Positions 6,776 to 31,899 of a stretch of DNA of 64,000 nucleotides are shown one piece after another (within the stretch, counting starts at the first letter, position 1; each line of letters starts with the position of its first letter). The notes under the pieces were generated by a model. The model was not told where the DNA came from, ran no database searches, and saw only the letters and a list, made by a program, of their open reading frames with translations. Source of the stretch: Mangrovimonas sp. YM274 (GTDB lineage: Bacteria; Bacteroidota; Bacteroidia; Flavobacteriales; Flavobacteriaceae); the NCBI RefSeq assembly GCF_030908385.1, contig NZ_CP133091.1, forward strand, positions 2,094,128 to 2,158,127, in the 5' to 3' direction. The position numbers and the translations under genes were made by a program.

Positions 6776-7824
6776 AGACAGCGATTGATATAACCAAATT
6801 GGCCAGACCCAATGTTTTGGCTCTAAAGCCATACTCATCGGCAAGGGATGATTTCAAAAAAAATGACGCTAATTACGTGTTTTTGGATGCCAATGAAAAT
6901 CCTTTTAATAATGGATTAAATCGGTATCCAGATCCACAGCAACATGCTTTAAAGGATGTGTTGTCTCGCTTAAATGGTGTATCCAAAGAGCAAATTTTGT
7001 TGGGTAATGGTAGCGACGAAGTATTGGATTTAATATTCCGTTCATTTTGTGAACCAAACAAAGACAATATTGTAATTCTGCCTCCTACATATGGTATGTA
7101 CGAAGTATTGGCCAATGTTAACGCAGTCAAAATCATTAAAGTGCCTCTTTTGGAGAATTTCCAGCCCAATGTCGAGGCTATTTTAAATACTATTGACAAC
7201 GCAACTAAACTCTTGTTTTTATGTTCTCCCAACAACCCAACAGCTAATAGTTTTCAAGCCGAAGCAATCGACAAATTATTGCAATCATTTAATGGCTTGG
7301 TAGTTATTGACGAAGCTTACATAGACTTTTCTGATCAAGAAAGTTGGCTTAATAGATTGGATGATTTCCCAAATCTTGTAATAACTCAAACACTCTCCAA
7401 GGCCTATGCCTTGGCAGGTGTCAGGTTAGGAATTTGTTATGCATCAAAGGAGATAATTTCAATATTGAATAAAATCAAGCCTCCTTACAATATCAACGAA
7501 TTAACCCAACAAAAGGCTATAAGTGAACTGAAAGGAACTATCGCAACACAGGAACAAATACAGACCATTCTCGATGAACGGGAACGATTGACAGTAGCCT
7601 TAAAGAGCATAGCCTACATTGAAAAAATATATCCTTCTGACACTAACTTTTTGCTGATTAAAGTGGACGATGCAAATAGACGATACCAGCAACTTGTAGA
7701 AGAGGGGGTAATTGTTCGAAATAGAACCAAGGAACCTTTGTGTGATAATTGTTTGCGCATTACAGTCGGGAATCCCAATGAAAACAAAATACTAGTACAA
7801 ACTCTACAGAACCTAAAGCCATGA
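6772..7824 (+). CDS. hisC: Histidinol-phosphate aminotransferase HisC
   Basis: PLP-dependent transamination of imidazole acetol phosphate with glutamate to give L-histidinol phosphate. 350 residues, class I/II aminotransferase fold. The PLP lysine is Lys210 in [16 protein letters not shown]. Upstream are [26 protein letters not shown] and [10 protein letters not shown], the family's substrate and cofactor segments. It overlaps hisD by 4 bases and hisB by 4 bases, so the three are tightly coupled. Confidence 0.96.
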
Positions 7825-24981: not shown

Positions 24982-26205
24982 TTAAGTTGAAGGATATGTG
25001 GGACACCCTTCAGCTTTTAAAATTTCTAAATGGTTTTCATAATTTACATCCAACACCTTACCTGTTTTCTTGTGGCAAAACGGGCAGGCATTCATATCAC
25101 CATCGCTATCAATATACATTCCCTTCTGTCCGGCACTAAAACAGCCTTGTCTACGTTGGTAATATCCATGATAGCTCAAAATGGGCATGTCTTTGTGATT
25201 TGGACCAAAATTCATTTTCAAAAAGAAATCTTCCAAAATAGCAATATGCGCTTTGTCAAGACTTACCTCTTTTTGCGCATAATGCCCAACTGCTTTAGGC
25301 TCCAATAATTGAACAAAAGACACCTCAAACTCCTTTGCTAATAACATATATTCCAATAAATTAGCTTCAGAAATGAATGTTTTTGTGGCGCAAAGCGACA
25401 AAGCAGTGACCAGACCTTCAGATTTGGCATTGGCCAAAGCTTGTTCCACCCAATAATAGGCATCTTTAAAATGTCGGAATGCATTATGGGCTTCTGGCCT
25501 GTGATGATCTAAACTCACAATGACCCCTTTTAACCCAGCCTTTTTCAAGCGTTTTGCATTTACATTTGTGAGTTTAAAGCCTGAGGTGACTATCCAAAAA
25601 TTGGTACGTTGTGTATTGGCAGCTGCCAACAACTTAATCATGGTCTCCATTTGAAGTAGGGGCTCCCCTCCCAACAATTGAATTTGACTTACTCCCTGCT
25701 CTTGCAATTTCCCCACAATTTTAATCAAGTCCACATCAGATAAAGTGTCCTTTTTATTCAAGTGCTCCCATTCATAACAATGCTCACATTGCAATGCACA
25801 TTTTTTAGTAATCGACAAAAAGACTGTATTAAACCTATTTGCAAAACCTCTATCCAAGGGTTTAAAATCATGCAGTTGAGAGGCTATAAATTGTTTATAA
25901 ATATCAGTATCCCATCCGGGAGTATACAAGCTCATAAAATACTCTCCATTTACATAAGCCATCTTTTGTAATCTGTAGTTTCCCAAAAAACGCCGTCTTA
26001 GTGCTACCAAATAACGCAGCGCCCGGAACCAATCAAAAGGATTTTTATAGCATGTCACAGCTATCTTTAGGAGGGTTAATTTCAGTTTAAAATGCACCAA
26101 TTTCATTGGCCATCCTGAAATTATGGAATGCCTATAAGTTTGGGTTTTAGAAGCCTCTGTTGGCTGGGCCTGAGACTGTGCGTAGTTTTTAATTTCAGTG
26201 ATCAT
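24982..26205 (-). CDS. Radical SAM enzyme with SPASM-like C-terminal cluster
   Basis: 407 residues. Canonical CX3CX2C at Cys136, Cys140 and Cys143 (KKCALQCEHCYEW), then GGEP at 179-182 and SLDHHRP in the barrel. The C-terminus has Cys355, Cys374, Cys377 and Cys401, consistent with an auxiliary iron-sulfur cluster of SPASM or twitch type. The first 120 residues are an extra helical domain. Such enzymes modify peptides or small substrates by radical chemistry. Flanked by a lipoprotein gene 11 bp upstream and a lipid hydroxylase gene 12 bp downstream. No precursor peptide is evident nearby, so a RiPP role is not supported. Confidence 0.88.
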   Translation of the reverse strand: MITEIKNYAQSQAQPTEASKTQTYRHSIISGWPMKLVHFKLKLTLLKIAVTCYKNPFDWFRALRYLVALRRRFLGNYRLQKMAYVNGEYFMSLYTPGWDTDIYKQFIASQLHDFKPLDRGFANRFNTVFLSITKKCALQCEHCYEWEHLNKKDTLSDVDLIKIVGKLQEQGVSQIQLLGGEPLLQMETMIKLLAAANTQRTNFWIVTSGFKLTNVNAKRLKKAGLKGVIVSLDHHRPEAHNAFRHFKDAYYWVEQALANAKSEGLVTALSLCATKTFISEANLLEYMLLAKEFEVSFVQLLEPKAVGHYAQKEVSLDKAHIAILEDFFLKMNFGPNHKDMPILSYHGYYQRRQGCFSAGQKGMYIDSDGDMNACPFCHKKTGKVLDVNYENHLEILKAEGCPTYPST

Positions 26206-26216
26206 AGGTCCTTTTA

Positions 26217-27908
26217 TTATTCAACTACAACACTTAATTCTTTCTCATAATTCATCAATGCCTCGTATTCATATTTGGAAAAATCGGTGAAGGCTCCTGC
26301 TTCCTTAAACAGTTTTAGCTTTCGAAAATTGGGTTCTTCATTATATTGTCTTATATAATTATAGTAGCCCCTGTTTTTAAGAAAATAGGTTCTTTTTAAA
26401 CTATTTGAAAAAGGTTCTATTTCAAAACTTACGGTTACTTCATCCCCTATATTAGGTTGAGTAAAATAGTTTCTATCCGCTGTAGTAAGCGCCTCCCTAA
26501 CGTTCTTGCCTTCACCATCAATAGCTTGGCTAGGAAGAATATATGCGATGTCTAACTCTTCATTTTTAGAATAATCAATTCCTACATAATCCAACTCCCA
26601 AAACATAAATCCTGTTTCCAGCCTTATGGCCACTTGCTCCCCTTTCACCTCACTTAAATCTACAGAAATAGCCTGATCCCGATACGCCATTGGCCCCACA
26701 GTATGTAACCGTTCAACCAACTCCCATCCCTTTTTAGTTTTTATATATACCGACAAAGGAATATGCTGCGCTTCTATCCAATCGGTACTTTGCTTTTTGG
26801 TTGTGTTTTGTTGCTGTTTTTGAAACTCTTGATAATAGGTTCCAAATTGCTCATTAAATTTTCCAAATATATAGTCTAACCATAAGGAGTTCTTGACTCT
26901 TAAATAAAGCTTAGCTTCTGTGGTGGGCTGTATAGGTTTATCAAAAAGAAAGTCTATTTGCCGCACACTGTTATCGCTGGTCAAGTCTTGATTAAAAAGA
27001 AAAGCATGACTGTCCTTTGCTAAAACAGCTTCTAGATCCATTTGCTCTCCATCCTCAAAAACTTTTTTTGGAGCTTGAATTGAAGAAAATGTGTAGGGGT
27101 TTCCATTCTGATCCATGAGTACAGAAATATCAGGACGGTGGCTTATTTCAACTAGCTGTAAAAAGTCTGTATGCTGTACTTCCTTCAGCTCGTTAGTAAC
27201 TTTTATATCTAATTTATTATTGCTTATTTCTAAATCCGGTAATTCTAAATAATCATCCTTTTGCATATTTGGTGTAATGATTCCCGGATACAACTCTCCA
27301 GCAAACTGATACTCATTCCCGTCCTTTATATAGATAAACGGACAGGAACTTTTGGTTAGCGCAACAATTATGGCTACTAGGGCAATTACACCAACAGTTC
27401 CACCAATAATATTGGCAACTTTACGCCCCGTATTTTCGTCATTAATCGAGATGGAGGTAATTTCTGAAATTGGAAACGTAACCTCATTCCCAAATCTTGG
27501 AGCTTCGGTAGAATTAATATAAAAATGAAGTTCATTTAGAGGCTCTTGCTTTTTTGTATATTGGTGAACTCGCTTACTTTCTCTAGGTTTTAATGACTTA
27601 TGGGCTTCGTTCAAAGAGGTACAAATTCCAGATATTGTTTTCTCGTTTTCATTAAGCACAAATTCATCCAAATGCCATATGTGTCCCTTGGTATGAATAA
27701 CCACATAGTTATACGAATCACTAAAATCTGCTATTTTACTCGAAATCGTTTCTGACGTAGTTGCTACATCCCTAACATTGTAATAAGAACAACCAATAAT
27801 GAGATTTAAAAATGAGAGTGTCAAGATAACAGATAGGCTTACCTTTAATTTGATGTTCTTAGAAAAAACTTGTAAGGGCTTAAATTTTGAATTGCTTGAA
27901 AAACTCAT
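26217..27908 (-). CDS. Large lipoprotein of unknown function
   Basis: 563 residues from the ATG at 27908. Signal with a basic start and Cys40 in IIGC. A second hydrophobic segment near 166-185 (GGTVGVIALVAIIVAL) follows an N-terminal domain of about 120 residues, and the rest (about 190-563) is a globular beta-rich part opening with CPFIYIKDGNEYQFAGELYPG. An ATG at 27980 adds 24 residues and would give an implausibly long signal. It is the first gene of the operon with the radical SAM and hydroxylase genes; a TATCTTTA on the minus strand at 28003-28010 may be its -7 box. No family recognised. Confidence 0.75.
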   Translation of the reverse strand: MSFSSNSKFKPLQVFSKNIKLKVSLSVILTLSFLNLIIGCSYYNVRDVATTSETISSKIADFSDSYNYVVIHTKGHIWHLDEFVLNENEKTISGICTSLNEAHKSLKPRESKRVHQYTKKQEPLNELHFYINSTEAPRFGNEVTFPISEITSISINDENTGRKVANIIGGTVGVIALVAIIVALTKSSCPFIYIKDGNEYQFAGELYPGIITPNMQKDDYLELPDLEISNNKLDIKVTNELKEVQHTDFLQLVEISHRPDISVLMDQNGNPYTFSSIQAPKKVFEDGEQMDLEAVLAKDSHAFLFNQDLTSDNSVRQIDFLFDKPIQPTTEAKLYLRVKNSLWLDYIFGKFNEQFGTYYQEFQKQQQNTTKKQSTDWIEAQHIPLSVYIKTKKGWELVERLHTVGPMAYRDQAISVDLSEVKGEQVAIRLETGFMFWELDYVGIDYSKNEELDIAYILPSQAIDGEGKNVREALTTADRNYFTQPNIGDEVTVSFEIEPFSNSLKRTYFLKNRGYYNYIRQYNEEPNFRKLKLFKEAGAFTDFSKYEYEALMNYEKELSVVVE

Positions 27909-28119
27909 GACACAAAAAATATTCAAGGAAGTCTTGTTTGCCAGAGATTTGAGGAGTAGAATACACCTAATAACATCCATCTAATAAAATGGAGAATTAT
28001 ATTAAAGATAAACTTTTTTTAATTGATAAACAATTTAGAATATTTTGATATTTCGTCATACCTCATAAATTCACCTAATTTCAAACCACAACATCGACTA
28101 AAGAAGTATCTTCGCGGCC

Positions 28120-29065: not shown

Positions 29066-30886
29066 TCAATCCTTTGCCTTTGCTTGACCGATACTTTCAC
29101 CAAAACGGTAGTTTACCGAAAATAAAAACTTACCCCCAACTTCATCATTCAAAAGTCCAGGGCCAGTATTGTGTTCCCTGTAGTGTTCCTTAAAAATATA
29201 CATAAGGCGTACTCCCATATTTTTGGTAATCAAGGTTTCTAATGATAAATAGCTGGTTTCCAAATTCCAAATATACCCATATCGTAAACTATAATCGGGA
29301 CTTAAACCAAAACTACTTCCTATACTTGATCTATGGTATATTGTAGGGTATGGAGAAGGAAACAGAAAGCCGTAATTATAATCAATATCCACATATTTTC
29401 GTGGACCAAATCGAGCATGCACCTCAGGCAAAAACACATATTCCTTTTGGGCATCTTCAATATTTGTGGCATCATAAAATTGATGTTTATTAACTCTTAA
29501 ACTTCCCAATTGAAAGCCAACCCCTCCTCCTAGCCACTTGCCATCATAAGTCACAAAGGGGTTTAGTCCAAAGACAAAATCCTTTTCTGTGTTATTGTTT
29601 GTCAAATTGGTGCTTTTCACCATGCCTCCATGAACATTGGCGCCTAGCCTAAGCGTTTTGTTATTTTTTTCCTTTATATAGGAATAGCCAAGCCCTCCAA
29701 CCTGATAGGTTTGTCTGTAATCCTCAGAGTCGTAGGTGGTACCACATTCCCCCTGTTGCGGGTTGTACCTAACCGTATTTGCAAAATCACCAAACGAGCC
29801 TCCTACATCCACTCGATGGTAGGTTTTAATAGCAGTTTTATGGGTTGGGATGGTTTGGGCAAAAACAAATAAAGGCATCAATAACAGCACACTTATGGCC
29901 ATTCTGTAAGGTTTTAACCTGTTTTCTGTATAGAGATAATAAACTGAAAGTACGATGGCAGGGAAAAACTTCACCCAAATTACCAAAAGTTCATAAGTTG
30001 AAAACAGGTTCCTAAAACTATATAGACAAACGGAAATGAATACGATATACAAAAAATCGGCGTGCAGAAATGGCGAATTTTCCCGACCCCCTAGCCAATC
30101 GCTACCTTTGTAACGTTCGTAAAACCATAAGACGCTTCCGGCAATCATACCATAAGCCAACATACTCCATTGATAGGTTCGCAAGCCCGCATAATACAAA
30201 GTGCTGAACTGAGAGCCAGTAGGATCCCTAAAAAATTCAATCCCAAAACGCATCATAAAAAACAGGGACAGTCCAAACAACAAGGCACTTAGGGGCTTTT
30301 GCCATTTTTTATGGGTTTTCCAAACAAGATAGCCTATCAAAACCAACAAGACACTCTCATAAAGTTGCACAGGATGCACCGATAAAGACGCCAAGGCTTC
30401 TGGAGCAATCTGTCCCGCACTCCAATGGTTAAAATGGGCATGGGTTCCCTTGGCATATTGAACCGACCACATCCCATTGGACGGAATACCATAGCAACAA
30501 CCATTAAAGAAACATCCCAGCTTAATAATTCCTAAAGCTATGGGGCAAATCCAGGCATATAAATTCAATATAAAACGTCCAAATCCGAAAATTCGTTGGG
30601 ACACTAACAGTCCCAAAAAACCGAAAAACAGCCCTCCTATGGCCGACCGATTATTAAAATTTGAGGAATGGGAATTGATAGCTCTGATCCAATCTTCCAA
30701 AGGAATGGTAAACAGCCGAGAGCCTAAAACCGTAAACAACGAAATCGTCGTCATCATTAAAAGGACCGATCTTAAATGATACCCTCGTTTGATACTTTTA
30801 TAGAGCACCACACAAAAAATGAGCAAGAATGCTAAAAAATAACATAACTGAAAAAGCACCTGGGGACTACCTACAAAATGTTCCAT
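29066..30886 (-). CDS. Lgt-like membrane acyltransferase fused to a beta-barrel-like domain
   Basis: 606 residues from the ATG at 30886. Residues 1-320 are a polytopic membrane domain with prolipoprotein diacylglyceryl transferase features: NGCCYG at 128-133, HPVQLYE at 171-177, and RFGIEFFRDP at 213-222. Residues 331-344 (ISVLLLMPLFVFAQ) look like the end of a second signal peptide with a cleavage site after AQ. Residues about 355-606 are Tyr- and Gly-rich alternating strands like an outer-membrane barrel, ending VNYRFGE. Typical Lgt has about 290 residues and no such tail. A GTG three codons earlier is a weaker start. The regulator gene lies 152 bp upstream on the same strand. Confidence 0.8.
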   Translation of the reverse strand: MEHFVGSPQVLFQLCYFLAFLLIFCVVLYKSIKRGYHLRSVLLMMTTISLFTVLGSRLFTIPLEDWIRAINSHSSNFNNRSAIGGLFFGFLGLLVSQRIFGFGRFILNLYAWICPIALGIIKLGCFFNGCCYGIPSNGMWSVQYAKGTHAHFNHWSAGQIAPEALASLSVHPVQLYESVLLVLIGYLVWKTHKKWQKPLSALLFGLSLFFMMRFGIEFFRDPTGSQFSTLYYAGLRTYQWSMLAYGMIAGSVLWFYERYKGSDWLGGRENSPFLHADFLYIVFISVCLYSFRNLFSTYELLVIWVKFFPAIVLSVYYLYTENRLKPYRMAISVLLLMPLFVFAQTIPTHKTAIKTYHRVDVGGSFGDFANTVRYNPQQGECGTTYDSEDYRQTYQVGGLGYSYIKEKNNKTLRLGANVHGGMVKSTNLTNNNTEKDFVFGLNPFVTYDGKWLGGGVGFQLGSLRVNKHQFYDATNIEDAQKEYVFLPEVHARFGPRKYVDIDYNYGFLFPSPYPTIYHRSSIGSSFGLSPDYSLRYGYIWNLETSYLSLETLITKNMGVRLMYIFKEHYREHNTGPGLLNDEVGGKFLFSVNYRFGESIGQAKAKD

Positions 30887-31038
30887 GATAAACACAATTA
30901 ATTAAATAGGTATGGTGCGGTAAGTGGGTCAGCTATTAGATCAACATGGAAAAAAACTATATTAAATATACGCATTTTTAGCCAAAAAAGGAAGCTAAAA
31001 ATAAGAATAGAAAGCCATTATGAGTGCATCAAAAGATG

Positions 31039-31899
31039 TTACATCGTCTCCAATTTATATCCCACCCCATGAATATTGACAAGCTGAATCCGTTCATCAT
31101 CCTGTAGTTTCTTACGAAGTTTGGAAATATAGGTATCCAAACTGCGCCCCACGACCACCCCATGGTCTTCCCAAACACGTTTGCTAAGTTCATCACGGCT
31201 AATCACTTGGTTAGGGCGCTCCACAAACAGCTCCAACAGTTCGCATTCCTTTTTGGAAAGGCTTATTTCGGTGGCAGGCGTTACCAATTTGTGCTGTTCT
31301 GGATAAAACATAAAACGCCCCAAAGGCACTTCCTTGGTGGCGGCAGGCTCTGAAACCACTGAGTGTTTTCGTCCGAAGAACCACCAACCCAAAACGCCTA
31401 AAACAATTACTGGAAGTAGCCATAACCAAACCAAATTAGAGTTCGTCCTTTCTCCTTCTATAAACTTCACATGGATCCTATAACAAGATTGAGGGAGCAC
31501 CCGACCTTGACACGGTACGATTCCCTGCTCCCCCTCCAGCCACATCTCATAGCTATAGGCTACTTCTGCATCTTCACACTGCAGTACTTCTACCAAATAA
31601 CGATCTGAAAGTTCTGCACGTTCCAAACTGCGCTCTACAATGGCCACCAAACTATCGGGTACAATTTGTAAAGCCTGTTCAAAGGAGAGTTCATAAGTAG
31701 AAGCGTCCAAAGCTACCACAGGAAGCACTCGGGAACTGGAATCGCCAGATTGCAACAACAATTGGTGTCCTGCCTCGCGTAAGCCTACTTTTATGCGTTC
31801 AGGAGAATGTTCTTCAACAGATTCGGAACAGGCTACAAAAAGTAGACTGAGTAGCAACAATGTCACTTTATAATTGAGTTTTATCATCATTGGTATCAT
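31039..31899 (-). CDS. Membrane-bound winged-helix regulator with inverted topology
   Basis: 286 residues. An N-terminal signal with lipobox-like FVAC (Cys24), an extracytoplasmic domain to about residue 155 with Cys108, Cys130 and Cys139, a membrane helix at about 156-176, and a C-terminal OmpR/PhoB-type winged helix (about 193-286: ISLSKKECELLELF, VISRDELSKRVW, VGRSLDTYISKLRKKL, IHGVGYKLE). ToxR and CadC have the winged helix at the N-terminus; here the order is reversed. If Cys24 is cleaved, the sensor is lipid-anchored and still tethered by the membrane helix. ATG codons at 31890 and 31887 are also possible. Confidence 0.85.
   Translation of the reverse strand: MIPMMIKLNYKVTLLLLSLLFVACSESVEEHSPERIKVGLREAGHQLLLQSGDSSSRVLPVVALDASTYELSFEQALQIVPDSLVAIVERSLERAELSDRYLVEVLQCEDAEVAYSYEMWLEGEQGIVPCQGRVLPQSCYRIHVKFIEGERTNSNLVWLWLLPVIVLGVLGWWFFGRKHSVVSEPAATKEVPLGRFMFYPEQHKLVTPATEISLSKKECELLELFVERPNQVISRDELSKRVWEDHGVVVGRSLDTYISKLRKKLQDDERIQLVNIHGVGYKLETM

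Follow-up and report, generated by a model that had tools for sequence, protein, structure and literature searches.

A single open reading frame of Mangrovimonas sp. YM274 joins a relative of Lgt, the enzyme that puts lipid on cysteine, to a tail resembling an outer-membrane barrel, which raises the question of how one chain could serve two membranes. The frame occupies positions 29066..30886 (-) of the window, by which we mean the whole stretch of 64,000 nucleotides that was analysed, and encodes 606 residues plus stop, with the ATG at 30886 and the stop codon at 29066-29068. An alternative in-frame GTG at 30895 would extend the product to 609 residues; the ATG is the point from which homologues align. 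The fused frame is real as first described, and an assembly artefact was ruled out as its source since the fusion recurs in many genomes. The AlphaFold2 model of the whole chain has ten long helices followed by twelve strands, an architecture that agrees with an enzyme-plus-barrel layout at low confidence (pLDDT 48, four-sequence input).

The N-terminal half belongs, by sequence, to the Lgt superfamily. Residues 13-255 (30122..30850 (-)) match PF01790 with 68.4 bits against a curated cut-off of 24.9 (E 7.6e-19), which bears out the Lgt motifs that the sequence-only reading had seen there, and PF01790 is found at E 0.01 or better in all ten fusions scanned. It is the only Pfam family matched by the chain at E 0.01, so an annotated genome would tend to show the gene as an Lgt and leave the barrel unnoticed. 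The best solved fold match of the whole-chain model is E. coli Lgt, 5azb (Foldseek E 8.1e-3, probability 1.00); no Foldseek match of the whole-chain or barrel model reached E 0.001, and a profile of the Lgt half found no PDB sequence at E 0.01. Alignment of 5azb to the pLDDT 48 model gives a Z of 11.7 over 234 aligned residues at an rmsd of 5.1 Å, where values below about 13 may be chance for helical bundles and the runner-up for that region scores 7.3. The fold match is backed by the PF01790 sequence match, which is independent of structure.

The enzyme half is nevertheless not a canonical Lgt, as judged from its sequence. A second, canonical lgt lies elsewhere in the genome (E 5.8e-58), and its product passes the NCBIfam Lgt equivalog TIGR00544 (142.2 bits versus 118.9), whereas the window protein has no match to this model at E 0.001. 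The NF000778 model separates the two less clearly, since the window protein scores 45.9 against a required 334 and the canonical Lgt of the same genome also falls below (79.9). When E. coli numbering is transferred to the fusions with the canonical Lgt of the window's genome as a bridge, the window protein carries isoleucine for H103, lysine for R143 (K122, just before the signature), and cysteine for both N146 (C125) and E151 (C130), the latter two within the altered signature GCFFNGCCYG (residues 124-133, 30488..30517 (-)). Among 15 aligned fusions the H103 position is isoleucine in eight, valine in three, serine in two, and leucine and tryptophan in one each; the R143 position is lysine in 14 and arginine in one, the remote L037; and the N146 and E151 positions are cysteine throughout. 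Other hallmarks have been kept. The equivalents of G154, H196, R239 and E243 are retained in 15 of 15 aligned fusions and that of R246 in a 10-row full-length alignment, the R239/E243/R246 network corresponding to R213, E217 and R220 of the window protein in the motif RFGIEFFRD (residues 213-221, 30224..30250 (-)). The motif HPVQLYE, common to Lgt (residues 171-177, 30356..30376 (-)), is retained as HPxQLYE in 14 fusions, with one E to D change, and lost in L037. The initial description of the motif set as close to but not identical with Lgt thus holds: like Lgt, the fusion matches PF01790, finds 5azb as its best fold match and keeps the R239, E243, G154 and H196 equivalents, and unlike Lgt it has H103, R143 and N146 replaced, additional hydrophobic segments, a barrel and no TIGR00544 match. 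Four stand-alone Lgt-type proteins from other genomes of the family (L020, L021, L022 and L023) have the same cysteine changes with R143 retained; they carry a GCCYG signature and make up a branch of non-canonical Lgt proteins whose reading frames hold no barrel. The fusion, for its part, ties a non-canonical branch of the superfamily to one particular barrel and may offer a handle on that branch's function.

The replacements mean that the enzyme half could be inactive. According to two reports, E. coli Lgt needs Y26, H103, R143, N146, G154 and R239 (PMC13251419; PMC4728403), and the H103A, R143A and N146A variants fail to restore growth (PMC13251419). The Lgt-like half might then be a pseudo-enzyme that has no transferase activity and serves the barrel as a scaffold in the membrane or as a means of delivery, and this would be compatible with cutting of the chain. 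The H103, R143 and N146 positions are indeed altered in the aligned fusions, with the exception of R143 in L037. Against this stand the retained R239, E243, G154, H196 and R246 equivalents, the dN/dS of the Lgt part (0.13 and 0.20 in the two pairs described below) and the variation among Lgt proteins themselves, in which H103 is variable and N146 and E151 are found as cysteine in distant members (PMC13251419; PMC4728403). Loss of activity is accordingly regarded as rather unlikely, and a non-canonical but working Lgt-type enzyme as the preferred reading.

Lgt is a seven-helix protein. In the window protein, where hydropathy was computed on this sequence alone, two extra hydrophobic segments follow, TM8 (30014..30070 (-)) and TM9 (29933..29989 (-)); the stretch that holds them is present in the 15 aligned fusions, and all 11 stand-alone Lgt-type proteins in the same alignment end before reaching it. 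If the C-terminal end of Lgt is inside, helices 8 and 9 would bring the chain back inside, so that the tenth segment would point outward like a signal peptide. This tenth segment, MAISVLLLMPLFVFA, covers residues 329-343 (29858..29902 (-)) and ends VFA-Q, with the Q being Q344 (29855..29857 (-)), the predicted +1 residue after signal peptidase I under the Q-rule. It is the hydrophobic run before a signal-peptidase-like site that had been picked out from the sequence at the start. After cutting, the segment would stay with the enzyme half as its tenth helix.

The junction is conserved to a degree that makes the signal-like segment more than chance on the sequence evidence. All 17 distinct homologues (the window protein included) have A or S before the junction and Q after it, 343-348 residues from the start, so that in no collected sequence are the halves joined without the signal-like segment; the remote homologue reads LMS-QS. 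Q344 is the sole invariant glutamine among the 55 invariant columns of the 10-row full-length alignment, which includes a member only 26% identical. Proline, which favours cleavage in some signal peptides when at -6, occupies that position in 16 of 17. Of 48 candidate export segments at the N-termini encoded by neighbouring genes, a set that still holds membrane proteins and missed lipoproteins, 19 show the pattern xXA-Q. Four of these 19 are lipoprotein-like and were dropped, and the remaining 15 signal peptides, chosen for glutamine at +1, were used to build a small position matrix. The matrix ranks the junction first within the chain in 12 of 17 homologues, second in three, third in one and 20th in the remote L037; with the +1 and +2 columns removed the junction is first in nine of 17 and 110th in L037. 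The small residue at -1 and glutamine at +1 found in every homologue fit the published Bacteroidetes Q-rule, by which most signal peptidase I substrates expose glutamine that is then cyclised (PMC5837995, PMC10653852). The fusion resembles the Q-rule substrates of PMC5837995 in the pair of residues at the site, a small one at -1 followed by Gln at +1, and differs from them in that its signal is internal, following about nine helices, rather than N-terminal.

A separate barrel protein could also arise without any cutting if translation started internally just before the signal segment, in which case there would be no precursor. The window gene does have an in-frame ATG 15 codons before Q344, from which the resulting signal would lack a positive n-region. 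Six of the 17 genes, however, have no ATG, GTG or TTG between 30 and 9 codons before the Q, and a scan for the same three codons found no start position common to the remaining genes. An internal start is thus highly improbable, and cutting of a full-length chain is preferred to it.

What is exported would be a barrel. The predicted mature tail comprises 263 residues (344-606, 29069..29857 (-)) and, when folded alone, again gives 12 strands, at low confidence (mean pLDDT 50, four-sequence input); the description of the tail as barrel-like on first inspection is supported to that extent. Among the 50 rows displayed by a VIA-align search with this model, 49 are barrels of the outer membrane or designed transmembrane barrels, as judged from titles or general knowledge, the exception being 5g26, whose title is silent on a barrel. 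The best match is the BrkA beta domain (Z 14.7, rmsd 3.6, 190 aligned), tied with a COG4313 channel (Z 14.2, rmsd 3.7, 192 aligned). All 15 tails that reach the C-terminal end have an NYRF or YYF strand near it, while L016 and L017 stop short; an aromatic C-terminal strand is common in outer-membrane barrels. The tail is thus best read as a predicted 12-stranded outer-membrane barrel, and in the sequences collected it is not predicted as a soluble domain. It shares its 12 predicted strands and aromatic C-terminal strand with autotransporter beta domains, KdgM and the COG4313 channel, and it differs from these proteins in its position inside a longer chain, its lone conserved cysteine and its lack of a recognised sequence family, Pfam, PDB and NCBIfam searches having returned weak and inconsistent names only.

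The distance between the two parts bears on whether the chain is cut. From the Q to the first conserved strand motif there are 14-20 residues in the 15 sequences that are measurable (all except L017 and L037), a linker of about 5-7 nm when fully stretched, and the periplasm is wider than that. If the barrel is real, such a linker seems not long enough to cross the periplasm, and any tail arriving at the outer membrane would have to be released by cutting. The chain could alternatively stay uncut, with segment 10 serving as an ordinary transmembrane helix that anchors the tail, a beta domain in the periplasm, to the inner membrane. Such an arrangement would suit the predicted helix 325-348 (609-residue numbering), which extends just past the site, and the low confidence of the barrel model. 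It would leave the A/S-Q of all 17 homologues without obvious need, since an uncut helix does not call for it, and would sit poorly with the proline at -6, with the aromatic strand that finishes every complete tail and with fold matches that, among the rows displayed, are membrane barrels. An uncut chain therefore seems unlikely, and cleavage, taken alone and judged from the sequences, probable.

Taken together, one reading frame, two domains and a conserved internal site make up what is expected of a two-product precursor. The proposal already made from the sequence, that the chain yields an inner-membrane enzyme and an exported barrel, gains the conserved junction, the barrel model and the short linker in its favour, with the cleavage step itself being predicted from sequence and models; as a whole, the statement that the chain is a precursor of an inner-membrane Lgt-like enzyme and an outer-membrane barrel is given a probability of roughly 65%. 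In the proposed sequence of events, the Lgt-like part would become embedded in the inner membrane with its C-terminal end inside, the two extra helices would preserve this orientation, and the tenth hydrophobic segment would then serve as an internal signal peptide exporting the tail. Signal peptidase I would cut after residue 343; glutaminyl cyclase would then convert the exposed Q344 to pyroglutamate, which makes this modification a testable marker of the predicted cut. The 343-residue product would be a non-canonical Lgt-type enzyme that stays behind in the inner membrane and probably handles phospholipid, and the 263-residue product would fold as a 12-stranded barrel in the outer membrane. 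Made as one chain, the lipid-modifying enzyme and the barrel would be synthesised in equal amounts, and they are probably steps of one envelope-lipid pathway.

If the chain is cut as predicted, a single bacterial chain would supply both membranes of the envelope by way of an internal signal peptide, an unusual way of making proteins for two membranes. A comparable case is the FbcH cytochrome b/c1 precursor of Bradyrhizobium, in which one reading frame with an internal signal peptide is cut into two membrane proteins. The Lgt-barrel fusion is similar in being a single bacterial frame with an internal signal peptide, its cutting being predicted, and differs in that both FbcH products belong to one inner-membrane complex whereas the second product of the fusion is predicted in the outer membrane. 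Among the titles listed from the open-access literature no fusion of Lgt to a barrel came up, and passages of PMC12636315 and PMC12419801 describe none.

The tail contains an unexpected feature that could connect it to the enzyme more directly. Each of the 15 complete tails has exactly one cysteine, at mature position 38-49, as do the two incomplete tails as far as they are available; even the tail of the remote L037, only 23% identical to that of the window, has a lone Cys. In the window protein this is mature residue 38 (29744..29746 (-)), which the model places in the loop between beta1 and beta2, the predicted first surface loop, where it would face outward. Lying 38-49 residues past the cut site, the cysteine would be near the enzyme for as long as the tail is tethered, and the Lgt-like domain might lipidate it before its own tail is cut off. 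The cut barrel would then carry lipid on its first surface loop, and the gene would by itself, with no lipobox, provide a way of making an outer-membrane barrel that is lipidated at the surface. Such self-lipidation is a speculation and quite improbable.

The 17 distinct homologues, all of which join both parts, comprise 16 from the window's family and one remote member from another family of the class. Two of them are incomplete: L017 is truncated where its contig stops, and in L016 the reading frame shifts partway through the barrel. This shift, at about 7250-7290 of the locus also compared as L062, lies in a single-contig genome and may be a sequencing error or a decaying copy. Of the related loci L003-L005, only L005 is distinct, L003 and L004 being genomes already counted; L003 (Mangrovimonas, with a twin in G040 of the same genus) is 96% identical to the window. 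Of 299 family genomes searched with the protein, 65 had some match; 14 of these are the long fusion, and the remainder align with all or some of the Lgt part. The barrel profile matches in 15 of 397 family genomes, and all 16 of its matches sit in fusion genes. The gene is patchy, a genome of the same genus (G262) being without a match. Outside the family the only new fusion is that of G658, found among 395 class genomes (E 2.6e-5), a 589-residue frame that is 26% identical and has the whole architecture; G658 is itself the one genome of 13 in its family to match.

Searches for a free-standing barrel with barrel profiles were negative in 395 class genomes and 397 family genomes (E 1e-4), in 395 phylum genomes and 196 order genomes (E 1e-3), and in the genome of the window itself (E up to 10). 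These samples overlap, and for many genomes fewer candidates were scored than the first look had flagged (6 of 13 in one instance), so that weak matches may escape. Separate-gene homologues, sought for both halves, thus exist for the enzyme in the form of stand-alone Lgt-type proteins and were not seen for the barrel. A weak phylum match in G800 (E 2.5e-4), a 1007-residue frame with a TonB-dependent-receptor-like reading, was set aside as general barrel similarity, and a PF01790 survey of 247 class genomes was, among the matches listed, uninformative on other fusions.

An unrooted tree of 26 rows places the 15 fusions in it in a single group (support 95/95), with a long-branch warning for L037. 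Substitution rates point to purifying selection on the fusion gene. Between the window gene and L003, dN/dS is 0.077 overall, 0.133 in the Lgt part, 0.046 in the barrel and 0.25 in the 22-codon signal segment (4 changes); between L005 and L009 it is 0.20 overall, 0.20 in the Lgt part, 0.18 in the barrel and 0.42 in the signal segment (5 changes). Purifying selection on the signal segment is thus weaker than on the domains in two pairs with 4-5 changes each, and two more distant pairs are saturated overall.

The 15 fusion loci compared have no universal neighbour. A gene for a CDP-alcohol phosphatidyltransferase lies directly downstream on the same strand in five of them (L057-L060 and L062), identified by Pfam at two loci with which the other three cluster, and gives a weak hint of a link to phospholipid. 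At 70% identity or more the phosphatidyltransferase occurs in 5 of 15 genomes with the fusion versus 1 of 15 without (at 88%). A general linkage was rejected, the gene being absent from 10 of the 15 loci and present in a genome that has no fusion. At L063 and L064 the gene directly downstream is of the GDSL-lipase family (by Pfam on L064). In the window, the frame at 31039-31899 (-) resembles a membrane-bound regulator, with a signal- or lipobox-like start and one hydrophobic segment, both seen by eye, and an OmpR-type DNA-binding end (PF00486). Further along, a 587-residue protein with no Pfam match at E 0.1 (26217-27980 (-)) adjoins a radical SAM protein (24982-26205 (-)), and relatives of these two proteins are also adjacent near the fusion in L005.
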